From an uncultured Caulobacterales bacterium (lineage in GTDB: Bacteria > Pseudomonadota > Alphaproteobacteria > Caulobacterales > Caulobacteraceae), in contig CAIMFV010000047.1 in the NCBI GenBank assembly GCA_903840435.1, positions 62,001 to 126,000 of the forward strand: 64,000 bases of DNA, given 5' to 3'. Shown here one piece after another: positions 34,036-48,113 of the stretch; the stretch's first letter is position 1, and every line of letters begins with the position of its first letter. Below the pieces are notes generated by a model. It was not told the origin of the DNA. It ran no database searches and was given only the letters and a program-made list of their open reading frames with translations. Both the position numbers and the translations under genes were made by a program.

Positions 34036-34272
34036 ATGTCCGATACGCCGCCCGATCGCCTTTCCGTCAATCCCAACAGTCCCTTCTATGATCAAGCCAT
34101 CTTGGCGCGCGGTGTCGGCGTGCGCTTCAAGGGTCAGGAAAAGACCAATGTCGATGAATATTGCATTTCCGAAGGTTGGGTGAGGTTGACCGTCGGAAAG
34201 CAAATGGATCGTAAGGGTAACGCCTTGACTGTCAAATTAAACGGAGAGGTCGAGCCCTATTTTCAATCTTAG
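34036..34272 (+). CDS. DUF3297 family protein
   Basis: 78 residues from ATG 34036. The whole length matches the family pattern: PPDRLSVNPNSPFYDQAILA, then GVGVRFKGQEKTNVDEYCIS, EGWVRLTV, and DRKGNALTVKLNGEVEPYF. These small cytosolic proteins are widespread in proteobacteria and have no assigned function. Starts earlier in the frame would add an unrelated basic stretch. The ~160 bases after it are AT-rich and hold no gene; a weak GGTAT/ATACC inverted pair is present near 34288. Confidence 0.88.
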   Translation: MSDTPPDRLSVNPNSPFYDQAILARGVGVRFKGQEKTNVDEYCISEGWVRLTVGKQMDRKGNALTVKLNGEVEPYFQS

Positions 34273-34434
34273 TTCGAAATTTTCCTTCGGTATGCTTATA
34301 GTATACCATAATTAACTCAGAATATTTTGTAGTAAATCGAATTGCAACGCTGATTTTAGAGCTGACGTTTACGATGCGTCGGTTATCGCCTCGGTCGAGG
34401 GCGAAGTGCGCCCAGTTTGAACCGGGGGCTTTTC

Positions 34435-35709
34435 GTGTCGAATTCTGATTTCCGCGGGATGGGACAGAAAATCCATCGCGCATTTGGACCCAAGGTCCTG
34501 ACGGGATTGTGGGTGGGTGCGACCCTTTCCGCGAGCCTGGTTGCGGGCCTGGCCAGCGCCCAGCCGGGTGGGCTTCCTCCGATCCCCAACACCATTCACG
34601 CCGCCAATGGCTCAAACCCGAGCGGGAGTTGGAAGGGCAAGTCGATCACGCTGCCCCATTCCCGCTATGACCTGACCCTGTTGAGCGCCGCTGCGGCCAC
34701 AGGTCAAACCGTACCCTTTTGGACGGCAACGGTGACGTCGCCGGTGGATACGCGATCCTATTCCATGTCGATGGTTGGCTCGAGCCCGTTTGCCGCGAAG
34801 CCAACGCCGACCACAATCACCTATGTGCCAATTGTCCTGCGCCTGCACGTCAGCAATGGATCGACAGTCGCTGTGCTCGATCCGACCAAGCCCGCCTGCG
34901 GCGATACGGTCCCCATCGCGACGCGGTTCTTCAATTCGCCCCTGTTCCAAAAGGTGACCTATATTTCCAACGGTCAAAACGTCACCGAGGGCGTCAGCGG
35001 CGCCCAATTGGTCAGCGCCTTCCAGCGGGCCAATTTTTGGAGTTATGTCAAATCGACCCAATACGGCGTCAATCTTACACCTTCTACGGCCACGCCGATT
35101 GTGGTCGACGCCAATGTGACGGGCGCGCTCTACACCATTGGGTGCAAGTCCGGCAAAACCGCAACGCTCGCTGCAATCGACATCAATACCTTTGATGCGG
35201 TGATGCAGTCCTTGACCTACAAATATGCGACGGCATCGCAATTGCCGACCATTTTGACCTATAATGCGGTTCAGACCGAAAGCGGCGGCTGCTGTATTCT
35301 CGGCTATCACAATGCCATGATGACCCCGAAGGGCGTTCAGACCTATGCCGTCGGTGCCTATATCGACTCTGGCGTCTTTTCCGGTGTCGATGACATTTCC
35401 ACCTGGAGCCACGAGTTGGCCGAATGGATGGATGACCCCTTCGTGCAGGCCTCTGTTCCGGGCGGTGGCAATGATGACCTAACCCCATCTTGGGGAAACG
35501 TCGGTCAGGTGCAAGGTTGCCAGAATAATCTCGAAGTGGGCGACCCTTTGTCAGGTACAGAATTCGCCATTACCGGCACAGGCGGCTTTGTCTACCACTA
35601 TCAGGACCTCGCCTTCCACGATTGGTTTTACCGCACGCCATCGAAAGGCTCGGGCGGAAGGTATTCTTTCGCCGGAACATTCACCTCATCTCAATCTACG
35701 GTGTGCTGA
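34435..35709 (+). CDS. Secreted protein with an HExxE motif, family not recognised
   Basis: 424 residues from a GTG at 34435 (GGGGGC upstream); ATG 34459 also fits. A signal peptide ends near SAQ (residue ~43). The mature protein is rich in Ser, Thr and Val, suggesting beta structure. Near the C-terminus ISTWSHELAEWMDDPF gives H326-E327-x-x-E330 and an Asp-Pro, and about 45 residues later comes NNLEVGDPLSG. An H-E-x-x-E followed by a downstream E-x-G-D resembles a signature in some uncharacterised secreted bacterial proteins, perhaps a metallopeptidase, but HExxH itself is absent. Four cysteines could form disulfides. Confidence 0.6.
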   Translation: MSNSDFRGMGQKIHRAFGPKVLTGLWVGATLSASLVAGLASAQPGGLPPIPNTIHAANGSNPSGSWKGKSITLPHSRYDLTLLSAAAATGQTVPFWTATVTSPVDTRSYSMSMVGSSPFAAKPTPTTITYVPIVLRLHVSNGSTVAVLDPTKPACGDTVPIATRFFNSPLFQKVTYISNGQNVTEGVSGAQLVSAFQRANFWSYVKSTQYGVNLTPSTATPIVVDANVTGALYTIGCKSGKTATLAAIDINTFDAVMQSLTYKYATASQLPTILTYNAVQTESGGCCILGYHNAMMTPKGVQTYAVGAYIDSGVFSGVDDISTWSHELAEWMDDPFVQASVPGGGNDDLTPSWGNVGQVQGCQNNLEVGDPLSGTEFAITGTGGFVYHYQDLAFHDWFYRTPSKGSGGRYSFAGTFTSSQSTVC

Positions 35710-35779
35710 TATCGCGCCGCGCGCCAGGACACGTCCGCGAGCGCACGGTTGGCGGACGTGACCCCGTGGAGGCAAAAAA

Positions 35780-37339
35780 ATGAACCGACGCGGTTGCACC
35801 TTGGCGACGCCCCCCCGGTGGTGGGGCCTTGTCATGGGCCTATTGGCTCTGGTCTTGAGTGAGACCCTGCCCCTAAATGCGGTTGCGCAGGGCGCGCCCC
35901 CGAGCGTGGCGGTCACCAACCTCAATCTGGCGTCGATCAGCGGGGTTGAGGATCGGCTTGCCCTGACCTTCAATGGGCTCTTGCCGATCTATTCGGTGAC
36001 AGCCAACGACCAATCGACCGTGTCGATTGCCATTGCGGGCGCAGTCAGAGCCCCTTCCGCCGTTGCCGCGCCGAGCCCAGGGGGGCTCCTCAGAGCGGTC
36101 GATTTCAGTCAGGACGGTCAGGTCCTGACCATTTCCCTGACCGGCCTAGGACCGCTGCATATCGAAACCACACCGCTTTCTGCCAAGGCGGTGGTGGTGC
36201 GGATTACTAGGTCGGCCAGTCCAAAAATTCCGGTGGCCGAAGCGCCGCAGGCCTTGGGGGCCCACAGGCTGCCCCTGCTCGCCGAGGACGGCTTTGTTGT
36301 GGTGCCGCTGAAATATGCCGATGTCAGCGAAGTGGTCGGCCTGTTGACCACAGATCGCAGCGTAAAGCCCAACGATTCCTTCATCCCGCAAGAACCAGCC
36401 TTTGGCTCGGTCGGGTCGAATAACGGCTATGGCGCGACCGGCGCCAATCTCAATCCAGGTCAGCAAACGCCGCCGAACGATCAGTCGGTGGGCCAGTCGA
36501 TTGATGACGCCATTGGCGTCGACCGACGCTTGAACGCCATTATTCTGCACGGCCCGCCCGATCTGGTCGCACGCCTGCGCGCCAAGATTGATTTGATCGA
36601 TCAACCGGTAGAAAGCGTTATTCTCGAAACCGTGTTTGTCGAATTGACCAGCAGCGCCGCTCGCAATGTCGGCCTTGATTTCAATAATGCAGCCGGGCAG
36701 ATTGCCACGGCGGTCTATCAAACCGGACCCTTCATCACCGCCGTAAACGGCTCGGGCAAGGGGGTGTCCCTACAGGCGGCGATCTCGGCCCAGGTACAGC
36801 AGGGCCAAGGCCGCATCCTGTCCAAGCCGCGCATTTCCGCCCAAAGCGGCTCAACGGCCAAGATCATCACCGGCGATGCCTTGCCCATCCTGACCTCGAT
36901 CACGCTCTCAGGCGTTAATGGCGTCTCGCAGCAAGTGCAATATGTCAATGTGGGCGTCACGCTGCAGATTGCGCCGCGCGTTACTGAAGACGGATTTGTC
37001 ACCAGCCACATTTTTTGCGTCGTCTCGTCGGTGACCGGGTCAAGCCAGGGCTATCCGACCATCAGCCAGAGGGAGGCCTCGACCTCGGCAACCGTGCGCG
37101 ACGGCGAGAGCTTTATAATTGGCGGCTTGAGCCAGGAATCGAAGCTGAGCACCGATTCGAAAATCCCATTGCTCGGCGATGTGCCAGGACTTGGGTTGAT
37201 CGGGCGAAGCGCTACCGGATCAAGTTCAAAGACCGATCTCTATATCGTGGTTACGCCCCATATTGTCCGGGTCGGCCATCCCCTGCCCAAGGTGGCGATC
37301 GAAGCGCCCGGCCTCAATGGCGCGCTTGCCCCCTGGTGA
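35780..37339 (+). CDS. Secretin-type outer membrane protein
   Basis: 519 residues with a signal peptide (MGLLALVLSETLPLNAVAQ). An N-terminal AMIN-like beta domain (LALTFNGLLPIYSVTANDQS...) precedes an N1-like segment PLKYADVSEVVGLLT and the secretin core: ILETVFVELTSSAARNVGLD, QGQGRILSKPRISAQSGSTA, VQYVNVGVTLQIAPRV and GESFIIGGLSQESKLSTDSK, PLLGDVPGLG, TDLYIVVTPHIV. It resembles PilQ or GspD-like secretins, which form an outer membrane gate. No other type II secretion or pilus genes are nearby, so its machine is unknown. Confidence 0.85.
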   Translation: MNRRGCTLATPPRWWGLVMGLLALVLSETLPLNAVAQGAPPSVAVTNLNLASISGVEDRLALTFNGLLPIYSVTANDQSTVSIAIAGAVRAPSAVAAPSPGGLLRAVDFSQDGQVLTISLTGLGPLHIETTPLSAKAVVVRITRSASPKIPVAEAPQALGAHRLPLLAEDGFVVVPLKYADVSEVVGLLTTDRSVKPNDSFIPQEPAFGSVGSNNGYGATGANLNPGQQTPPNDQSVGQSIDDAIGVDRRLNAIILHGPPDLVARLRAKIDLIDQPVESVILETVFVELTSSAARNVGLDFNNAAGQIATAVYQTGPFITAVNGSGKGVSLQAAISAQVQQGQGRILSKPRISAQSGSTAKIITGDALPILTSITLSGVNGVSQQVQYVNVGVTLQIAPRVTEDGFVTSHIFCVVSSVTGSSQGYPTISQREASTSATVRDGESFIIGGLSQESKLSTDSKIPLLGDVPGLGLIGRSATGSSSKTDLYIVVTPHIVRVGHPLPKVAIEAPGLNGALAPW

Positions 37340-39640: not shown

Positions 39641-40363
39641 ATGTCTGAGACGTCCCAGCGCCCCACCTCCCGAAAAGGCGAGATTCGCACGGAAATCTTG
39701 TCGCGGATCACCCGTGGCGATTGGCCGCCCGGCGCGCGAGTTTCATCCGAACACGAATTGATGGCTCAGTTCGGTGTCAGCCGCATGACCGCCCACGCCG
39801 CCTTGGCCGAGTTGGCCCGCGAAGGCGTGTTGCGGCGGGTCAAGGGCTTGGGAAGCTTTGTCGCACCACCCCTGGCGCACCTGACGGTGATGAATGTCGG
39901 TGACCCGGCTGAGGAGATCGCTGCCCGGGGCGCCCTCCACCGTGCCGAAGTCATCTTGGCGGCTGAGCGTCCGGCCACGGCGGCTGAGGCCCTGGTGTTT
40001 CGCCTTTCAGAAGGGGCGAGCCTCTTTCATCTCGTTATCCGACATTTTGAGAATGACGCCCCGGTGGTGCTGGAAGACCGACTGGTCAATCCAAAGGCAG
40101 CGCCGGATTTTCTAAACCAAGACTTCAGCCGCCAAACCGCGTTTGCCTATTTGATGGCGCTGGCCCCTTACCCGCAAGGCCGCCATATCATCCGCGCCAC
40201 CGAGGCGACGGAGCGGCTTCGGGCGCTGCTCCACTTGCAACCGAACGAACCCTGCCTCGAAATTGAACGGACCACCTGGACCGCGACCTGTGTCGTCACC
40301 CAAGTGCGTCTCTCCCATCCGGGCCAGCGCTTCGCACTGATTGGCGCCATCGAGCCCCGTTAG
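39641..40363 (+). CDS. hutC: Histidine utilisation repressor HutC (GntR family)
   Basis: 240 residues. The N-terminal GntR winged helix-turn-helix shows ILSRITRGDWPPGARVSSEH, ELMAQFGVSRMTAHAALAEL and GVLRRVKGLGSFVAPP; a UTRA ligand domain follows (VFRLSEGASLFHLVIRHFEN, DRLVNPKAAPDFLNQDFSRQ, and FAYLMALAPYPQG). HutC represses hut genes and is released by urocanate. The hutI, hutF, hutU, hutG and hutH genes downstream and two matching palindromes make the assignment secure. The glucoamylase gene between it and hutI is unusual. Confidence 0.93.
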   Translation: MSETSQRPTSRKGEIRTEILSRITRGDWPPGARVSSEHELMAQFGVSRMTAHAALAELAREGVLRRVKGLGSFVAPPLAHLTVMNVGDPAEEIAARGALHRAEVILAAERPATAAEALVFRLSEGASLFHLVIRHFENDAPVVLEDRLVNPKAAPDFLNQDFSRQTAFAYLMALAPYPQGRHIIRATEATERLRALLHLQPNEPCLEIERTTWTATCVVTQVRLSHPGQRFALIGAIEPR

Positions 40364-40368
40364 CCTGC

Positions 40369-40391
40369 GGGCGAGGGGGCGACCTCGCCCC
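40369..40391 (+). terminator. GC-rich hairpin after hutC, possible terminator
   Basis: GGGCGAGG pairs with CCTCGCCC across six bases, starting six bases after the hutC stop. Only CTTC follows, so it is a weak intrinsic terminator at best, but it may separate hutC from the glucoamylase gene. Confidence 0.4.
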
Positions 40392-40547
40392 TTCAACAGC
40401 CAAGCGCGGTTTGGGCAATTCTCGTCTGGTCGCGCTTGACGCGGCGCCGGTCCGCCGTCCAAGGTTGCGCGGTTGCTCGAAAGCTTCCCGACCCTTGACC
40501 CAAGGGTCGCAGAGGCCACACCCCTCATCAGCAGAGTCACAGCCATC

Positions 40548-42857
40548 GTGATCCGCCCTCTCTATGCGCTTGCCCTCGTCTTGAGCCTTGTCGCGACAAG
40601 TCTCGCCCCCGTCATCGCCCACGGCCAAACCCCCACCTGGGCCCCGTCGACGAAGGAGGGCGTGGGAACGGCCTACGCGCCTTACGGGCCTGGACGCGAC
40701 CGGTCCAAGGTATGGTTCTCTCTGGCCCAGGGCATGTTGACCGAGACCGAGTACGGCCTGATCCATCAAGCCCAAATCAAGACGGCCCGCATCGCTGTGG
40801 TGACAGAGACGGGCCTTGTCATCGAAGGGCGCGACACGACCGACACGGTAAGCTTTCTTGCGGTGGATGAGGCTGGCCGACCGCTCGCCCCTGCCTATCG
40901 GTTGACGACCCGCGACCGCGGGGGACGGGTCGAGATCGTCAAGGACATTTTCACCGACCCAGATCACAATGTGGTCTTTGTCCGCGTCACCGTGCGGGCC
41001 CTGCATGGCAAAGCGACGCCCTATCTTTTGGTTGAGCCGCACATGGACAATGTGGCGACGGCCAATCTTGGCTTTGCTAGTCGCGACCGGCTGAGCGCCC
41101 ACCAGTCGCAGGCCTTTGTCTCCGTCCTCGCCAACGCCCCCTTTCTGGCCGCGAGCGCCGACCCGCTTGGGTCCAATGATGCCGAAGCCCAGTTGCAGCG
41201 CACCAAGGCCTTGTCGGCGCCGCATGCAAATTCAGGAGATCCTGGCGCCGTCGTCCTGGGCGCCCAGTTGGGGCCGGCAACCGATCAAGTCGCAAGTTAT
41301 GACCTCGCCTTTGGCTTTGGCGCTACGGATGCGCAAAGTGTCTCCGAGGCCAGGGCGAGTTTGAAGGCAGGCTACGCGGCTGTGTTGGCGGCCTATGTCC
41401 GGGGTTGGAGCCAGTATCTTAGCGGATTAAGCCAATTGCCGCGTTTGGCGGCTCAGGCGACCGACGGCGGTAAGCTCGCCTTTGCCAGTGCGCTCGCCTT
41501 GAAGGTCCAGGAAGACAAGACCTATCCCGGCGCCCTGATCGCATCGCTGTCCAACCCTTGGGGCGATACGGTCCGCGCCACCCAAGCCTCTACCGGCTAT
41601 AAGGCGGTCTGGCCGCGCGATTTTTATCAATGCGCCATGGCGTTGGCGGCGCTGGGCGATACCGAGACGCCGGTCGCGGCCGTCCGCTATCTCAAGTCTG
41701 TCCAGGTGGCGGCAAAACCGGACGCGGTCGGCGGCTGGTTCCAACAGAAGTCCCATGTGGACGGCACGCCCGAGTGGTTCGGTGTGCAAATGGACCAAAC
41801 CGCCATGCCCATCATGCTGGCCTGGAAGCTCAACCATCTTGGGCTGATCAGCGATGCGGAGCTTCGACGGACGTGGGAAGGGTCATTGCGGCCCGCGGCT
41901 GATTTCCTGGTTCAGGGCGGCGAGGTGCGGCTTGGGACCAATCACCGGGTGATCCATCCTCCGGCGACGGAGATGGAAAGGTGGGAAGAAAAGGCAGGCT
42001 ATTCCCCCTCGACCATGGCAGCGGAAATCACCGGGCTTGTGCTGGCTGGCGACCTTGCGGCGCGATTTGGTGAGCCGGACCGCGCCAAGCTCTATAGCCA
42101 AACCGCCAAGGCTTACTCGGACAGCCTGGAAGGCCGCACCGCAGTTCGTCGCGGGGCCTTGGCCGACCACCCCTATTATCTGCGCATTGTCGATGCCGAG
42201 CGGGCAGATTTGGCGCCGGTCATTCCTCCCCACAACGGCCTTGGACCCTTGCCCGCCGATCAGATGGTCGATGCAGGCTTTTTGGAGTTGGTCCGTTATG
42301 GTGTGAGGCGGGCAGATGATCCCTTGGTGGTCGACAGTTTGAAAGTGATCGATGACCAATCCCGCGCCGACGACCTGCGGGTGCGCTACGACTTTCACCT
42401 TCCTGGCGATCCGGCCACCCTTCCGGGGTTTCGCCGCTATGGCCATGATGGCTATGGCGAAGATCAGGTCACAGGCGAGGGTTATGCCGCCCATGATGGC
42501 GTCAATAGTCCGAACCAACGTGGGCGGGTCTGGCCGCTCCTGACCGGTGAGCGCGGCCATTACGAACTGGCGCTCGCCCTGGTGCAGCCGGGGGATCGGG
42601 CGGCGAGGTTTGCCGCCGTGCGCCAGACCTATGTGCATGCCATGGAAAGGTTTGCCAATGCCGGGCTGATGCTGCCCGAGCAGGTCTATGACGGGGTGGG
42701 AAGCCCGCTTCCCTCCACAGCCCTGCCGGGCCAGGGCACCGATTCCGCCACACCGCTCAGCTGGGCCCACGCGGAATATGTCAAGCTGTTGCGCTCCTTG
42801 GCCGACAAGGCGGTGTTCGACGCCTATCCGCCCGTCGGTGCGCTGCTGGCCAAATAG
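40548..42857 (+). CDS. Glucoamylase (glucan 1,4-alpha-glucosidase), GH15
   Basis: About 769 residues from GTG 40548; an in-frame TTG at 40473 would add 25 residues before the signal peptide. The signal peptide is LYALALVLSLVATSLAPVIA. An N-terminal beta-sandwich (GVGTAYAPYGPGRDRSKVWF) is typical of bacterial GH15 and is followed by the (alpha/alpha)6 barrel: TGYKAVWPRDFYQCAMALAA, GWFQQKSHVDGTPEWFGVQM, and LPEQVYDGVG near the end. It releases glucose from starch and maltodextrin ends, in the periplasm or outside. Embedded between hutC and hutI, but functionally allied with the amylase locus at 50934-63089. Confidence 0.9.
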   Translation: MIRPLYALALVLSLVATSLAPVIAHGQTPTWAPSTKEGVGTAYAPYGPGRDRSKVWFSLAQGMLTETEYGLIHQAQIKTARIAVVTETGLVIEGRDTTDTVSFLAVDEAGRPLAPAYRLTTRDRGGRVEIVKDIFTDPDHNVVFVRVTVRALHGKATPYLLVEPHMDNVATANLGFASRDRLSAHQSQAFVSVLANAPFLAASADPLGSNDAEAQLQRTKALSAPHANSGDPGAVVLGAQLGPATDQVASYDLAFGFGATDAQSVSEARASLKAGYAAVLAAYVRGWSQYLSGLSQLPRLAAQATDGGKLAFASALALKVQEDKTYPGALIASLSNPWGDTVRATQASTGYKAVWPRDFYQCAMALAALGDTETPVAAVRYLKSVQVAAKPDAVGGWFQQKSHVDGTPEWFGVQMDQTAMPIMLAWKLNHLGLISDAELRRTWEGSLRPAADFLVQGGEVRLGTNHRVIHPPATEMERWEEKAGYSPSTMAAEITGLVLAGDLAARFGEPDRAKLYSQTAKAYSDSLEGRTAVRRGALADHPYYLRIVDAERADLAPVIPPHNGLGPLPADQMVDAGFLELVRYGVRRADDPLVVDSLKVIDDQSRADDLRVRYDFHLPGDPATLPGFRRYGHDGYGEDQVTGEGYAAHDGVNSPNQRGRVWPLLTGERGHYELALALVQPGDRAARFAAVRQTYVHAMERFANAGLMLPEQVYDGVGSPLPSTALPGQGTDSATPLSWAHAEYVKLLRSLADKAVFDAYPPVGALLAK

Positions 42858-42859
42858 GC

Positions 42860-44080
42860 TTAAACCGAAAGGCCGCCGACCACCCGGCGGCAGGCGGGCG
42901 CGCGGCCAAGATTGCTCATAATGTGTAAGGGGTGGTCGGCCTCCCAAATGGCGAGATCGCAGAGATGGCCGGGCGCCAAACAGCCAAGATGATCGTCGAG
43001 GCCCAAGGCCTTGGCCGCAATCGTGGTTGCACCGGCAAAGGCTTCCTGCGGCGTCAAACCAAACAGGGTGCAGGCCAGATGCAGGGCAAGTCTTAGGCTG
43101 GCAAGGGGCGAGGTGCCGGGATTGCAGTCAGACGCTACGGCCATGGCAAGCCCTGCCTGGCGCATGGCCGCAACGGGCGGGGCGGTTTTCTCGCGCAGCA
43201 CATAATAGGCGCCTGGCAGCAAGACGCCCACAACCCCCGCCTCAGCCATGGCGGCCAGCCCCTCTGGGTTTGCGAATTCGAGATGGTCAGCGCTCAAGGC
43301 CCCAAACCGCGCGGCGAGGGCGGCGCCGCCGCTGTCGCTCAACTGGTCGGCATGCAGCTTGACCCGCAAACCCAATCGCGTTGCCGCAGCAAAGAGGTGG
43401 GCCACCTCTTCGGGGCCAAAGGCGATGGTCTCGCAAAAGGCGTCGACGGCGTCGGCAAGGCCAGCCTTCGCCGCCGCCGGAAGAATCTGATCGGTAATAT
43501 AGGCGAGATAGGTCTTTCGGTCGTCGCGATATTCCGGCGGCACGGCATGTGCGGCGAGCAGGGTGGTGCGAATGCGCACCGGACGCAAGGTGCCTAGCTG
43601 TCGGGCGACGCGCAACATTTTCAGCTCATCATCGAGCGTGAGGCCATAGCCGGACTTGATTTCGAGGGTTGTCACGCCATCGGCCAAAAGACTGTCGAGG
43701 CGAGGGAGGGCAGAGGCGATGAGCTCGGCTTCCGAAGCTCCGCGCGTGGCCGTGACTGTGGAGAGGATGCCGCCACCCGCTCGGGCGATCTCGGCATAGG
43801 GCGCGCCCTCTAGACGCATGGCCCATTCGCTCGCCCGATCTCCGCCAAACACCAGATGGGTATGGCAATCAATCAGGCCCGGTGTGACAAGCCGCCCGGC
43901 GAGATCATAGGTTTCAGCAGTCGTGTCGAACAGGTCGCTTGGAACGCGTGCCGCCGCGCCGACATAGACGATCCGTTCGCCGCGCGCGACGATGACGCCG
44001 TCAGCAATGCGGCCAAAATCTCTCCCGACGCCGGTCGCCACGGGACCGCCGCGCCACACCCGCAAGGTCTGATCTTGCAT
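42860..44080 (-). CDS. hutI: Imidazolonepropionase
   Basis: 406 residues from ATG 44080, the family's usual length; a longer frame to 44167 overlaps the promoter and operator region. HutI opens imidazolone-5-propionate to N-formimidoyl-L-glutamate, the third step of histidine degradation. Metal-dependent amidohydrolase features are LVTPGLIDCHTHLVFGGDRA, LEIKSGYGLTLDDELKMLR, VKLHADQLSDSGGAALAARF and the C-terminal VASDCNPGTSPLASLRLALH. Divergent from hutF with a HutC-like palindrome between them. Confidence 0.96.
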   Translation of the reverse strand: MQDQTLRVWRGGPVATGVGRDFGRIADGVIVARGERIVYVGAAARVPSDLFDTTAETYDLAGRLVTPGLIDCHTHLVFGGDRASEWAMRLEGAPYAEIARAGGGILSTVTATRGASEAELIASALPRLDSLLADGVTTLEIKSGYGLTLDDELKMLRVARQLGTLRPVRIRTTLLAAHAVPPEYRDDRKTYLAYITDQILPAAAKAGLADAVDAFCETIAFGPEEVAHLFAAATRLGLRVKLHADQLSDSGGAALAARFGALSADHLEFANPEGLAAMAEAGVVGVLLPGAYYVLREKTAPPVAAMRQAGLAMAVASDCNPGTSPLASLRLALHLACTLFGLTPQEAFAGATTIAAKALGLDDHLGCLAPGHLCDLAIWEADHPLHIMSNLGRAPACRRVVGGLSV

Positions 44081-44152
44081 GTCGCCATCCTTACCTGACG
44101 CGCGCCCATCGCCCCTGACGGTCGCGCTTGGCAAGTCGAACGGATTTGGACT

Positions 44153-44170
44153 AACTTGTCTAGACATATT
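44153..44170. promoter_or_regulatory. HutC operator candidate, hutI-hutF intergenic
   Basis: AACTTGTCTAGACATATT, containing the perfect palindrome TGTCTAGACA (44157-44166). It lies 12 bases before the hutF start and about 70 before hutI. It shares 13 of 18 positions with the site at 45533-45550 and resembles HutC sites known from other proteobacteria (TTGT...ACAA type). Confidence 0.75.
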
Positions 44171-44181
44171 GGGGGGCTTTT

Positions 44182-45534
44182 ATGAGCGCACTGTGGTTTG
44201 AAGAGGCGCGCCTTGAAACCGGTTGGGCACCTGCGGTGCGCCTCGAGACCGACAGCCAAGGGTGTATTTCGCACCTCGTCTCCCATGCTGCCCCGGACGG
44301 CGCCGAAGTCATCCGAGGTGCAGCCATTCCGGCCCTGGCCAATCTGCACAGCCATGCCTTTCAACGCGCTTTTGCCGGACGGGCGGAGGCCTCCGACGGC
44401 GGACCCGATGACTTCTGGGGCTGGCGCGAACAGATGTATGGCTTTGTGGCGCGCCTCGACGTCGACGATGTGGAGGCAATCGCTGCGCAAGCCTATATGG
44501 AAATGCTCAAGGGCGGCTATGGGGCCGTGGCCGAGTTTCACTATCTGCATCGGCAGATGGACGGGGCTTGGGGCGCCGACAAGGCTGAAATGGCCCTGGC
44601 AGTGGCGCGCGGCGCCGATGCTGCGGGCATAGGGTTACGGCTCCTTCCGGTGGTCTATCTGACAGCCGGGTTTGACGGGGCCGGGCTGTCTGATCGCCAA
44701 AAGCGTTTTAACGCCACAGGTGAGGACGTGGCCGATATTCGCCAGGCATTGGAGCGGCACGGCGTTGCCACCGGACTTGCCTTGCACAGCCTGCGCGCTG
44801 TCCCTCCAGACGCGATTTTGCGGGCGCTCGACCTTGCACCTCAGGGCCCGATCCATATTCACATTGCCGAGCAAACCGCTGAGGTCGAGGCCTGCCTTGC
44901 AGTCACAGGGCGCCGTCCGGTTGCGCGGCTGTTTGAGCTCGCAGAGGTCGATGCGCGCTGGTGTCTGGTCCACGCCACCCACATGACCGCCGATGAGATC
45001 GCTGAAGCGGCGCAGTCGGGCGCTGTCGCCGGGCTATGTCCGACCACGGAGGCCGATCTTGGCGATGGCTTTTTTCCATTGGCTGACTGGGAGGCGGCGG
45101 GCGGGCGGTTGGGCGTTGGCTCAGACAGCCATGTGGTGATTGACGCAGCTGAAGAGGTGCGGCTGTTGGACTATGGCCTGAGACTGGGTCACCGCCGCCG
45201 CTTCGTTGGAACCGGCCAAGGGTCGCGCGGCGCGCGGCTGTGGGCGGCCGCCAGTGCAGGCGGGCGCCAGGCCTGGTCTGGCGAGGGCCTCGCTCCGGCT
45301 TGGCTTAGTCTTGGCCAGCGGGCTGATCTTGTCGCGCTGGATGTGCAACACCCGTCCCTTGCGGAGCAAAAGGGCGATGCCCGCTTTGATGGCCTGGTGT
45401 TTTGCAATCATGGGCGGCCCTTCGAAACCGTCATCTCCGGCGGCGTTATTCAGGTTAGGCAAGGCCGCCACGTGCGCGAGGACGCCATCCAACAGCGCTA
45501 CCGCAAAACCCTCGCCAAGCTCTGCCGCTCGTAA
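44182..45534 (+). CDS. hutF: Formimidoylglutamate deiminase
   Basis: 450 residues. HutF deaminates N-formimidoyl-L-glutamate to N-formyl-L-glutamate, so this organism uses the five-enzyme hut route rather than direct HutG-type formiminoglutamase. Amidohydrolase metal motifs are IPALANLHSHAFQRAFAGRA, GAVAEFHYLH, GPIHIHIAEQ, CLVHATHMTADE and GRLGVGSDSHVVI. Divergent from hutI; its start lies just after a HutC-like palindrome, so repression probably acts at this promoter. Confidence 0.94.
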   Translation: MSALWFEEARLETGWAPAVRLETDSQGCISHLVSHAAPDGAEVIRGAAIPALANLHSHAFQRAFAGRAEASDGGPDDFWGWREQMYGFVARLDVDDVEAIAAQAYMEMLKGGYGAVAEFHYLHRQMDGAWGADKAEMALAVARGADAAGIGLRLLPVVYLTAGFDGAGLSDRQKRFNATGEDVADIRQALERHGVATGLALHSLRAVPPDAILRALDLAPQGPIHIHIAEQTAEVEACLAVTGRRPVARLFELAEVDARWCLVHATHMTADEIAEAAQSGAVAGLCPTTEADLGDGFFPLADWEAAGGRLGVGSDSHVVIDAAEEVRLLDYGLRLGHRRRFVGTGQGSRGARLWAAASAGGRQAWSGEGLAPAWLSLGQRADLVALDVQHPSLAEQKGDARFDGLVFCNHGRPFETVISGGVIQVRQGRHVREDAIQQRYRKTLAKLCRS

Positions 45535-45550
45535 GTTGCCTATACAAGTT
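45533..45550. promoter_or_regulatory. HutC operator candidate, hutF-hutU intergenic
   Basis: AAGTTGCCTATACAAGTT begins in the hutF stop codon and ends 63 bases before hutU. It matches the hutI-hutF site at 13 of 18 positions (shared pattern AAnTTGnCTAnACAnnTT). It suggests that hutU-hutG-hutH has its own HutC-controlled promoter. Confidence 0.68.
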
Positions 45551-45612
45551 AGTCGCGCTAGTCTGCCAACTCTCCAGGCTCATTTCGCTTAGGCTCGCAC
45601 CGGATCCCTGCC

Positions 45613-47319
45613 ATGACCGCTTCCCCGCCAGATCGCCTTGCCAATAGCCGCGTCGTCCGCGCCGCTCGCGGCCCGACCCTGATCGCCAAGACCTGGGTGG
45701 CGGAAGCTGCCATGCGCATGCTGATGAACAACCTCGATCCTGAGGTGGCCGAAAAGCCAGACGAGCTTGTGGTCTATGGAGGCATTGGTCGGGCGGCGCG
45801 GGATTGGAACGCCTTTGACGTCATGGTCTCGACCTTGAAACGGCTGGAGGGCGATGAAACCCTGCTCGTCCAGTCAGGCAAGCCCGTGGGTGTCTTTCGC
45901 ACCCATGCCGACGCGCCCAGGGTCTTGATCGCCAATTCCAATCTCGTGCCGCATTGGGCGACCTGGGACCATTTCAACCATCTCGATCGCCTGGGCCTGA
46001 TGATGTACGGCCAGATGACGGCGGGCTCTTGGATCTATATTGGCAGCCAAGGCATCGTTCAGGGCACGTTCGAAACCTTTGTCGAAGCTGCGCGCCAGCA
46101 CTATGGCGGCTCCTGGGCGGGGCGGTGGATCTTGACCGCGGGCCTTGGCGGCATGGGCGGAGCGCAGCCCTTGGCGGCGACCCTGGCGGGGGCGTCCTGT
46201 CTGGCGGTCGAATGCCGACCCTCCTCCATTCAAAAGCGTCTCGACACCCGCTATCTCGACCGCACAACAGACGACCTCGACCTAGCCCTGACTTGGATCG
46301 ATGAGGCTTGCAAAACAGGTCAGCCGATCTCGGTTGGCCTGTTGGGCAATGCCGCTGAGGTTTATCCCGAACTCGTTCGGCGTGGCGTGCGACCCGATCT
46401 GGTCACAGATCAGACCTCGGCCCATGACCCGATCAATGGCTATCTGCCGAAGGGCTGGAGCCTGAACGACTGGGACGCGCGCCGCACCGCCCAGCCAAAC
46501 CAGGTGTCGGAAGCGGCCAAGATTTCCATGGCCGAGCATGTGCGCGCCATGCTGGCCTTTCAAAAGATGGGCGTGCCGGTCGTCGATTATGGCAACAATA
46601 TCCGCCAAATGGCCAAGGAGACAGGCGTGGCGGATGCCTTTGATTTTCCAGGCTTTGTTCCGGCCTATATTCGCCCGCTCTTTTGCGAGGGCAAGGGACC
46701 TTTCCGCTGGGTGGCGCTGTCAGGCGACCCTGAGGATATCGCCAAGACGGATCAGCGCGTCCGCGAATTGATGCCCCACGACGCCCATCTGCAAACCTGG
46801 CTCGACATGGCCAAGACCCGCATCGCCTATCAGGGTTTGCCCGCGCGAATTTGCTGGCTGGGACTTGGCGACCGCCACCGCATCGGCCTCGCCTTTAACG
46901 AGATGGTACGCAATGGCGAGGTGTCGGCGCCGATCGTCATCGGCCGGGATCATCTGGACACCGGCTCGGTCGCCAGCCCGAACCGCGAAACCGAGGCCAT
47001 GCGCGACGGCTCTGACGCCGTGTCCGACTGGCCCTTGCTCAACGCGCTCCTGTCCACCTCGGGCGGCGCCAGTTGGGTGTCCTTGCACCATGGCGGCGGG
47101 GTCGGCATGGGCTTTTCGCAACATGCTGGCATGGTCATCGTTGCCGATGGCACGCCAGAGGCCGACCGCCGCCTGGAGCGGGTCCTGTGGAACGACCCGG
47201 CGATTGGCGTCCTGCGCCATGCTGATGCGGGCTATGAGGTGGCGAGGGCCTGTGCGGACAGACACGGGCTTGACCTGCCAATGTTGGCCAAACCGGTGAT
47301 GGCGCAAGGTCGCCCATGA
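45613..47319 (+). CDS. hutU: Urocanate hydratase
   Basis: 568 residues, typical length. HutU uses tightly bound NAD+ to hydrate urocanate to imidazolonepropionate, the second step of histidine breakdown. Family stretches are [74 protein letters not shown] and [21 protein letters not shown] HutC-like site precedes it, and hutG overlaps its end by four bases (ATGA). Confidence 0.97.
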
Positions 47320-48113
47320 GCGCGGCTTTTCGCTTCCAGCCGGGGCATTTGCCGCTGATTGTGTCGGTTCCCCATGCCGGATTGTCGATCCCGGAAGATA
47401 TCGCCGCCGCCTTGACCGAGGTGGCCTTGGATCAGCCCGATGCCGATCATGCGGTCGATCAGCTGTATGATTTTGCAACCGATCTTGGCGCAAGCCTCAT
47501 CGCTGCGAACCTGTCGCGCTATGTGGTAGATCTCAACCGACCGCCCAATGATGAAAGCCTGTATCCGGGGCAGGTGGGTAGCGGGCTTGTGCCGACCGAA
47601 ACCTTTGATGGCGCGCCGCTCTATCGCAGCGCCTGCCCAAGCGCCGCTGAGGTCGCACGCCGGGTGGCGCTGTACTGGCGTCCCTATCATGCCGCCTTGA
47701 GCGCCGAAATCGCCAGGATCCGCGCCCGGTTCGGCTATTGTCTCCTGTGGGACGCCCATTCCATCACCCCGGTCGAGCCCCGTCTGTTTGAGGGACGCCT
47801 GCCTGACCTCAATCTTGGCAGTTTTGACGGCCGCGCCGCGCCACGGGCCCTCGCAGATGCCGTGCTGGCCGCCGCCGACGGGGCCTATAGCCGCGTGGTG
47901 GATGGGCGTTTCAAGGGCGGCTACATCACCCGCGCCTATGGCGACCCGCAGGCTTTCGTCTTTGCCCTGCAAATGGAGCTCGCCCAATCGACCTATCTGA
48001 CGGAAGGGGCGCGTCTGCCCGACCCTCTGCTCAGCGGCCAGCTTAGGTCCTGCCTGAAAACCCTGCTCATGACCTTTCTTTCTGAGGCGCCGTCCTATGT
48101 CCGACAAACATGA
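47316..48113 (+). CDS. hutG: N-formylglutamate deformylase
   Basis: 265 residues of the FGase family, which hydrolyses N-formyl-L-glutamate to glutamate and formate, the final step after HutF. Visible features are [40 protein letters not shown] followed by [26 protein letters not shown], and [20 protein letters not shown]. The zinc ligands should lie in the PHAG, DLNR and WDAHS segments. The start overlaps the hutU stop, and the end overlaps hutH by 17 bases, so tight coupling is expected. Confidence 0.94.

Follow-up and report, generated by a model that had tools for sequence, protein, structure and literature searches.

The window, as the whole 64,000-nucleotide stretch from genome G000 is termed here, contains a gene for a likely exported protein with an HExxE motif and, directly after it, an orphan secretin gene. 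The features under discussion are:

34435..35709, + strand: HExxE family gene, 424 aa from GTG 34435 or 416 aa from ATG 34459
34459..34560, + strand: likely Sec signal peptide, ending ...LASA (judged by eye from the sequence)
35308..35310, + strand: codon of H292 in LGYHNA, a candidate ligand kept in 57 of 58 homologues
35410..35439, + strand: HELAEWMDDP motif (H326, E327, E330, D334, P335), located on a predicted helix
35530..35547, + strand: LEVGDP motif (E367, G369, D370, P371)
35710..35779, no strand: gap of 70 bp between the HExxE gene and the secretin gene, with no + strand terminator-like site
35780..37339, + strand: orphan secretin, 519 aa, with Secretin_N at residues 173-278 and Secretin at 339-497

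Both GTG 34435 and ATG 34459 are possible starts. From the latter the N-terminus reads MGQKIHRAFGPKVLTGLWVGATLSASLVAGLASA, which by eye has the look of a signal peptide and agrees with the exported protein proposed in the preliminary description of this DNA. The SHELAEWMDDP and NNLEVGDP segments pointed out there are both present in the translation of 34435-35709 (the codon of H326 starts at 35410 and that of E367 at 35533); HExxH is indeed absent from it, and the secretin gene adjoins as described, starting 70 bp after the HExxE stop. The upstream region (34270-34430) has an A+T-rich look and contains a single weak promoter-like site at 34274.

No Pfam or NCBIfam family fits the window protein or its relatives, which supports the suggestion of a possible new family, and the HExxE-family profile has no sequence match in the PDB. 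Hits of the window protein to Peptidase_A25 (E 0.32) and to a ribosomal S1 model (0.24) in Pfam/NCBIfam were dismissed as chance, as were the PDB sequence matches of this single protein, the profile giving none. The same description had called the protein an orphan, and this label has to be given up: the protein has many relatives across phyla and is remotely connected with PF04674. Scanning named genomes by pattern yielded 58 HExxE-family loci, many of them in Acidobacteriota and Caulobacteraceae and others in Eremiobacterota, Binatota, Rokubacteria and elsewhere. The family is present in 3 of 41 near genomes (G000 itself included), there in up to three copies, and in 10 of the 390 genomes of the Caulobacteraceae set; G000 was the sole bearer among the 398 genomes of a phylum-wide search, so the family is rare there. 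Two copies stand at several loci, and the open frame that holds one copy in G457 (L135) is very long, at 1226 aa. C-terminal repeats of Ig-like, ASH or Big_3_5 type are present in some members (L019:5782-8226, L023:2996-5722, L028:47-1183).

The alignment of 58 sequences (A2) omits six of the scanned loci, namely L008 and L010, which are the same genes as L003 and L004, as well as L037 (broken frame) and L061-L063 (cut by contig ends), and includes the degenerate L064. Its near-invariant columns are H292 (57), H326 (57), E327 (57), E330 (58) and D334 (58), together with P335 (58), E367 (58), G369 (54) and D370 (57); H388 is kept in only 37. The HExxE pattern is not chance: H326, E327, E330, D334, E367 and D370 are each retained in 57-58 of the 58. 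A lack of conservation of the His and Glu residues among homologues had been named beforehand as the outcome that would refute the proposal, and since H326, E327, E330 and E367 are near-invariant this outcome does not occur. L064:5674-6900 retains much of the fold core with H326, E327 and D370 all replaced, and from its sequence would be a natural candidate for an inactive family member.

EXORDIUM proteins promote plant growth, and it is their family, PF04674 (Phi_1, phosphate-induced protein 1), that sequence comparison identifies as the nearest relative found. Measured by the Pfam threshold, the window protein falls outside this family: PF04674 gave no match to it at E 10, nor to the 58 members at E 1. 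PF04674 proteins and near-threshold relatives from HExxE-bearing genomes, 4 of 27 of which hold a PF04674 protein over the Pfam cut-off, nevertheless display the same core, namely GYH or GWH, HExxExx(T/S)DP, W, E.GD and a late Q. Comparison of the two profiles with hhalign gave probabilities of 92.1 and 90.7 over 85 and 83 columns spanning GYH, HExxE, DP and E.GD, the PF04674-side alignment (A3) having three of its seven rows below the Pfam cut-off; the same rows were used in A4. The profile link scored 53.9, whereas none of 100 column shuffles exceeded 23.5 and the reversed profile reached 18.0. The PF04674 profile has no PDB relative (best E 0.94). The window protein differs in being longer, with the detected similarity limited to its last third. 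To judge from profiles, these data indicate a distant relationship of the HExxE family to EXORDIUM of plants via bacterial PF04674 members.

The HExxE protein was modeled using AlphaFold2 (pLDDT 90.3, pTM 0.89). Foldseek found no PDB match at E <= 0.001 for this model or for that of PF04674. In a second look with VIA, ranks 1-46 for the HExxE model were all zincin folds, mostly metzincins, including ulilysin, fragilysin, TACE, ADAM, venom peptidases, InhA2, OgpA and 6o38 chain C, which we take to be the secreted peptidase CpaA. The best match was proulilysin (Z 9.0, rmsd 4.2 over 209 residues), followed by profragilysin (8.3) and TACE (8.1), with Z falling from 5.8 to 4.6 where unrelated chains begin; best Z values of 7-8 are common in such searches and a Z of this size is not proof. 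For the weaker PF04674 model (11 sequences, pLDDT 67) zincin-type folds occupied all of the best 50 matches listed (best Z 7.6), and the two separately built models thus agree on a predicted zincin-type fold. The structure prediction called for at the outset came out zincin-like, and on our reading the succession of strands and helices that leads up to the HExxE helix in the model suits the N-terminal half of a metzincin. Metzincins are characterized by the HExxHxxGxxH/D zinc motif and the methionine of the Met-turn. The HExxE protein resembles ulilysin, fragilysin, ADAM/TACE and the adamalysins in its predicted fold, in the predicted order of strands and active-site helix, and in the HE at the start of the motif, but it lacks HExxHxxGxxH/D and has E330 (58 of 58) where His is expected, and in its family none of the invariant or nearly invariant columns is a Met.

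We surmise, at roughly even odds (about 0.5), that the gene encodes a Sec-exported metzincin-like metallohydrolase for which the secretin encoded 70 bp downstream would be the dedicated pore of exit through the outer membrane; the steps that we infer are the binding of metal, catalysis and passage through the secretin. On this reading the HExxE family and PF04674 (EXORDIUM) would be two branches of one superfamily. The protein would be a metal-dependent hydrolase, most likely a peptidase, in which the HExxH helix of a metzincin-like fold reads HExxE. Metal would be held by H326 and E330 plus a downstream acid (E367, D370 or D334) and perhaps H292, with E327 as the putative general base. Alternatively, the fold may be metzincin-like and the conserved acidic/His site may bind a structural metal such as calcium, or another ligand, in a surface binding or adhesion protein that is no enzyme, and EXORDIUM perhaps likewise. 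The site is rich in acids with few His, and the C-terminal Ig/ASH repeats of some relatives would suit such a role; Ig-type repeats are, however, also found on secreted enzymes, and 57 of 58 homologues retain E327, the putative general base. In the part of the literature source that we cite, plant EXO is an apoplastic protein whose conserved PHI1 region is described as resembling no other known domain (PMC3691544), which is compatible with a binding protein. This explanation is credible in outline and, on balance, rather unlikely.

Returning to the exported metallohydrolase and its proposed pore, the secretin has a clear domain match (PF00263, 9.6e-40). It shares Secretin and Secretin_N domains with GspD and PilQ but scores far below both cut-offs (166.5 bits with the GspD model, cut-off 351), is paired with a single exported protein, and belongs to a genome with neither a GspE-type ATPase (E <= 1e-40) nor GspG. 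G000 has two secretins, the second of which adjoins an ATPase that we read as Tad-type. In Caulobacteraceae the subfamily of the window secretin numbers 20 copies in 19 of 390 genomes (E <= 1e-60).

With G428 added, 21 neighborhoods of the subfamily were examined using a simple self-made ORF picker on genomes that are related to one another, and in 15 of the 21 an exported hydrolase or similar gene stands beside the secretin (HExxE, PF04674, sedolisin-like, GH11 or S8). The HExxE gene is directly upstream in four (G000, G024, G428, G468), and in G464 one PEP-CTERM protein gene (L117:396-1073) intervenes; the co-occurrence that was to be checked is accordingly seen in five genomes. A PF04674 gene lies directly upstream in three places (G003, G004, G005), although just 2 of the 385 genomes sampled from the class contain PF04674; this position is a further likeness between the two families. 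G482 has a GH11 xylanase gene directly upstream of an orphan secretin (L123:7291-7962, - strand), and in G609, G022 and G157 an S8 subtilase is found downstream. Three mutually similar exported proteins, directly upstream in G004 (C5), G014 and G809, are presumably sedolisin-like by their GTSA and E..LD motifs; those scanned gave nothing convincing in Pfam, NCBIfam or PDB, so this label is a guess. The remaining six places comprise unplaced or RcnB-like exported proteins (G808, G810), no evident cargo neighbor (G467 and G765, in the latter of which a TonB receptor follows) and neighborhoods limited by contig ends (G457, G001). In the secretin tree, PF04674-linked and S8-linked secretins each fall inside a supported clade; 10 of its 19 inner branches are open, too many for counting changes of cargo. 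The pairing of the HExxE gene with the secretin suggests a small enzyme-plus-exit-pore unit.

The distribution of type II secretion system (T2SS) components was also compared. Of 20 genomes with a subfamily secretin, eight have GspE (E <= 1e-40) and the same eight have GspG; neither is found in the five with linkage of HExxE gene and secretin (G000, G024, G428, G464, G468). GspE is present in five of the six HExxE genomes without linkage (G457, G459, G462, G469, G472) and absent in G002 (88% complete), where three HExxE genes and no secretin were found. Fisher's test, calculated by hand for these 11 genomes, gives 6/462 = 0.013, a value that ignores relatedness. The GspE search also matches the B. 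subtilis and Synechococcus controls, and therefore a PilB-type ATPase should have shown. Most simply, the HExxE protein would be a type II-like cargo that leaves through the T2SS in genomes possessing one and through a dedicated pore elsewhere. In G000 the enzyme would fold in the periplasm and then exit via the secretin, which would replace the missing T2SS.

It is also conceivable that the protein is an enzyme that does not exit through the secretin, the two genes having nothing but regulation in common, or the secretin serving a Tad pilus or another filament. In favor of this, neither GspE nor GspG is found in G000, which leaves it with no dedicated motor, and a Tad-type ATPase adjoins its other secretin. 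Against it, unrelated exported hydrolases take up an equivalent position next to secretins of this subfamily, as expected of cargo more than of pilus parts, and we regard it as unlikely. A gene order due to chance or hitch-hiking, together with a motif that is a functionless feature of the fold core, is highly improbable: the simple ORF picker and the related genomes allow for it, yet linkage occurs in five genomes despite the rarity of both the family (10/390) and the secretin (19/390).

If the enzyme-and-pore interpretation is extended, the superfamily of the HExxE family and EXORDIUM would as a whole be one of metzincin-like HExxE metallohydrolases, and an orphan secretin plus one exported hydrolase would constitute a minimal exit unit with swappable cargo, operating without a dedicated secretion ATPase or pseudopilus. 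This extension is tentative, and taken as a whole we consider it possible rather than probable. Plant EXORDIUM would then be an apoplastic metalloenzyme.

In the excerpts of published work to which we refer, a single bacterial EXORDIUM homologue was known in 2009 (PMC2661892), a complete type II system adjoined by a cargo gene is described for C. crescentus (PMC2996285), and HEXXE is used in one paper for fungal M35 peptidases (PMC7215534). Within the portions of open-licence PMC articles retrieved, nothing was found that describes the HExxE family, assigns EXORDIUM to the metzincins or pairs orphan secretins with a single cargo. The metzincin-like reading singles out particular residues for mutation in members from plants and bacteria. 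The pairing with the secretin raises the question of whether a secretin in the outer membrane could let an enzyme out when the motor of type II secretion is missing.

Elsewhere in the window, positions 39641-48113 presumably represent a histidine utilisation region by look, with what we take to be a GntR/HutC-type regulator at 39641.
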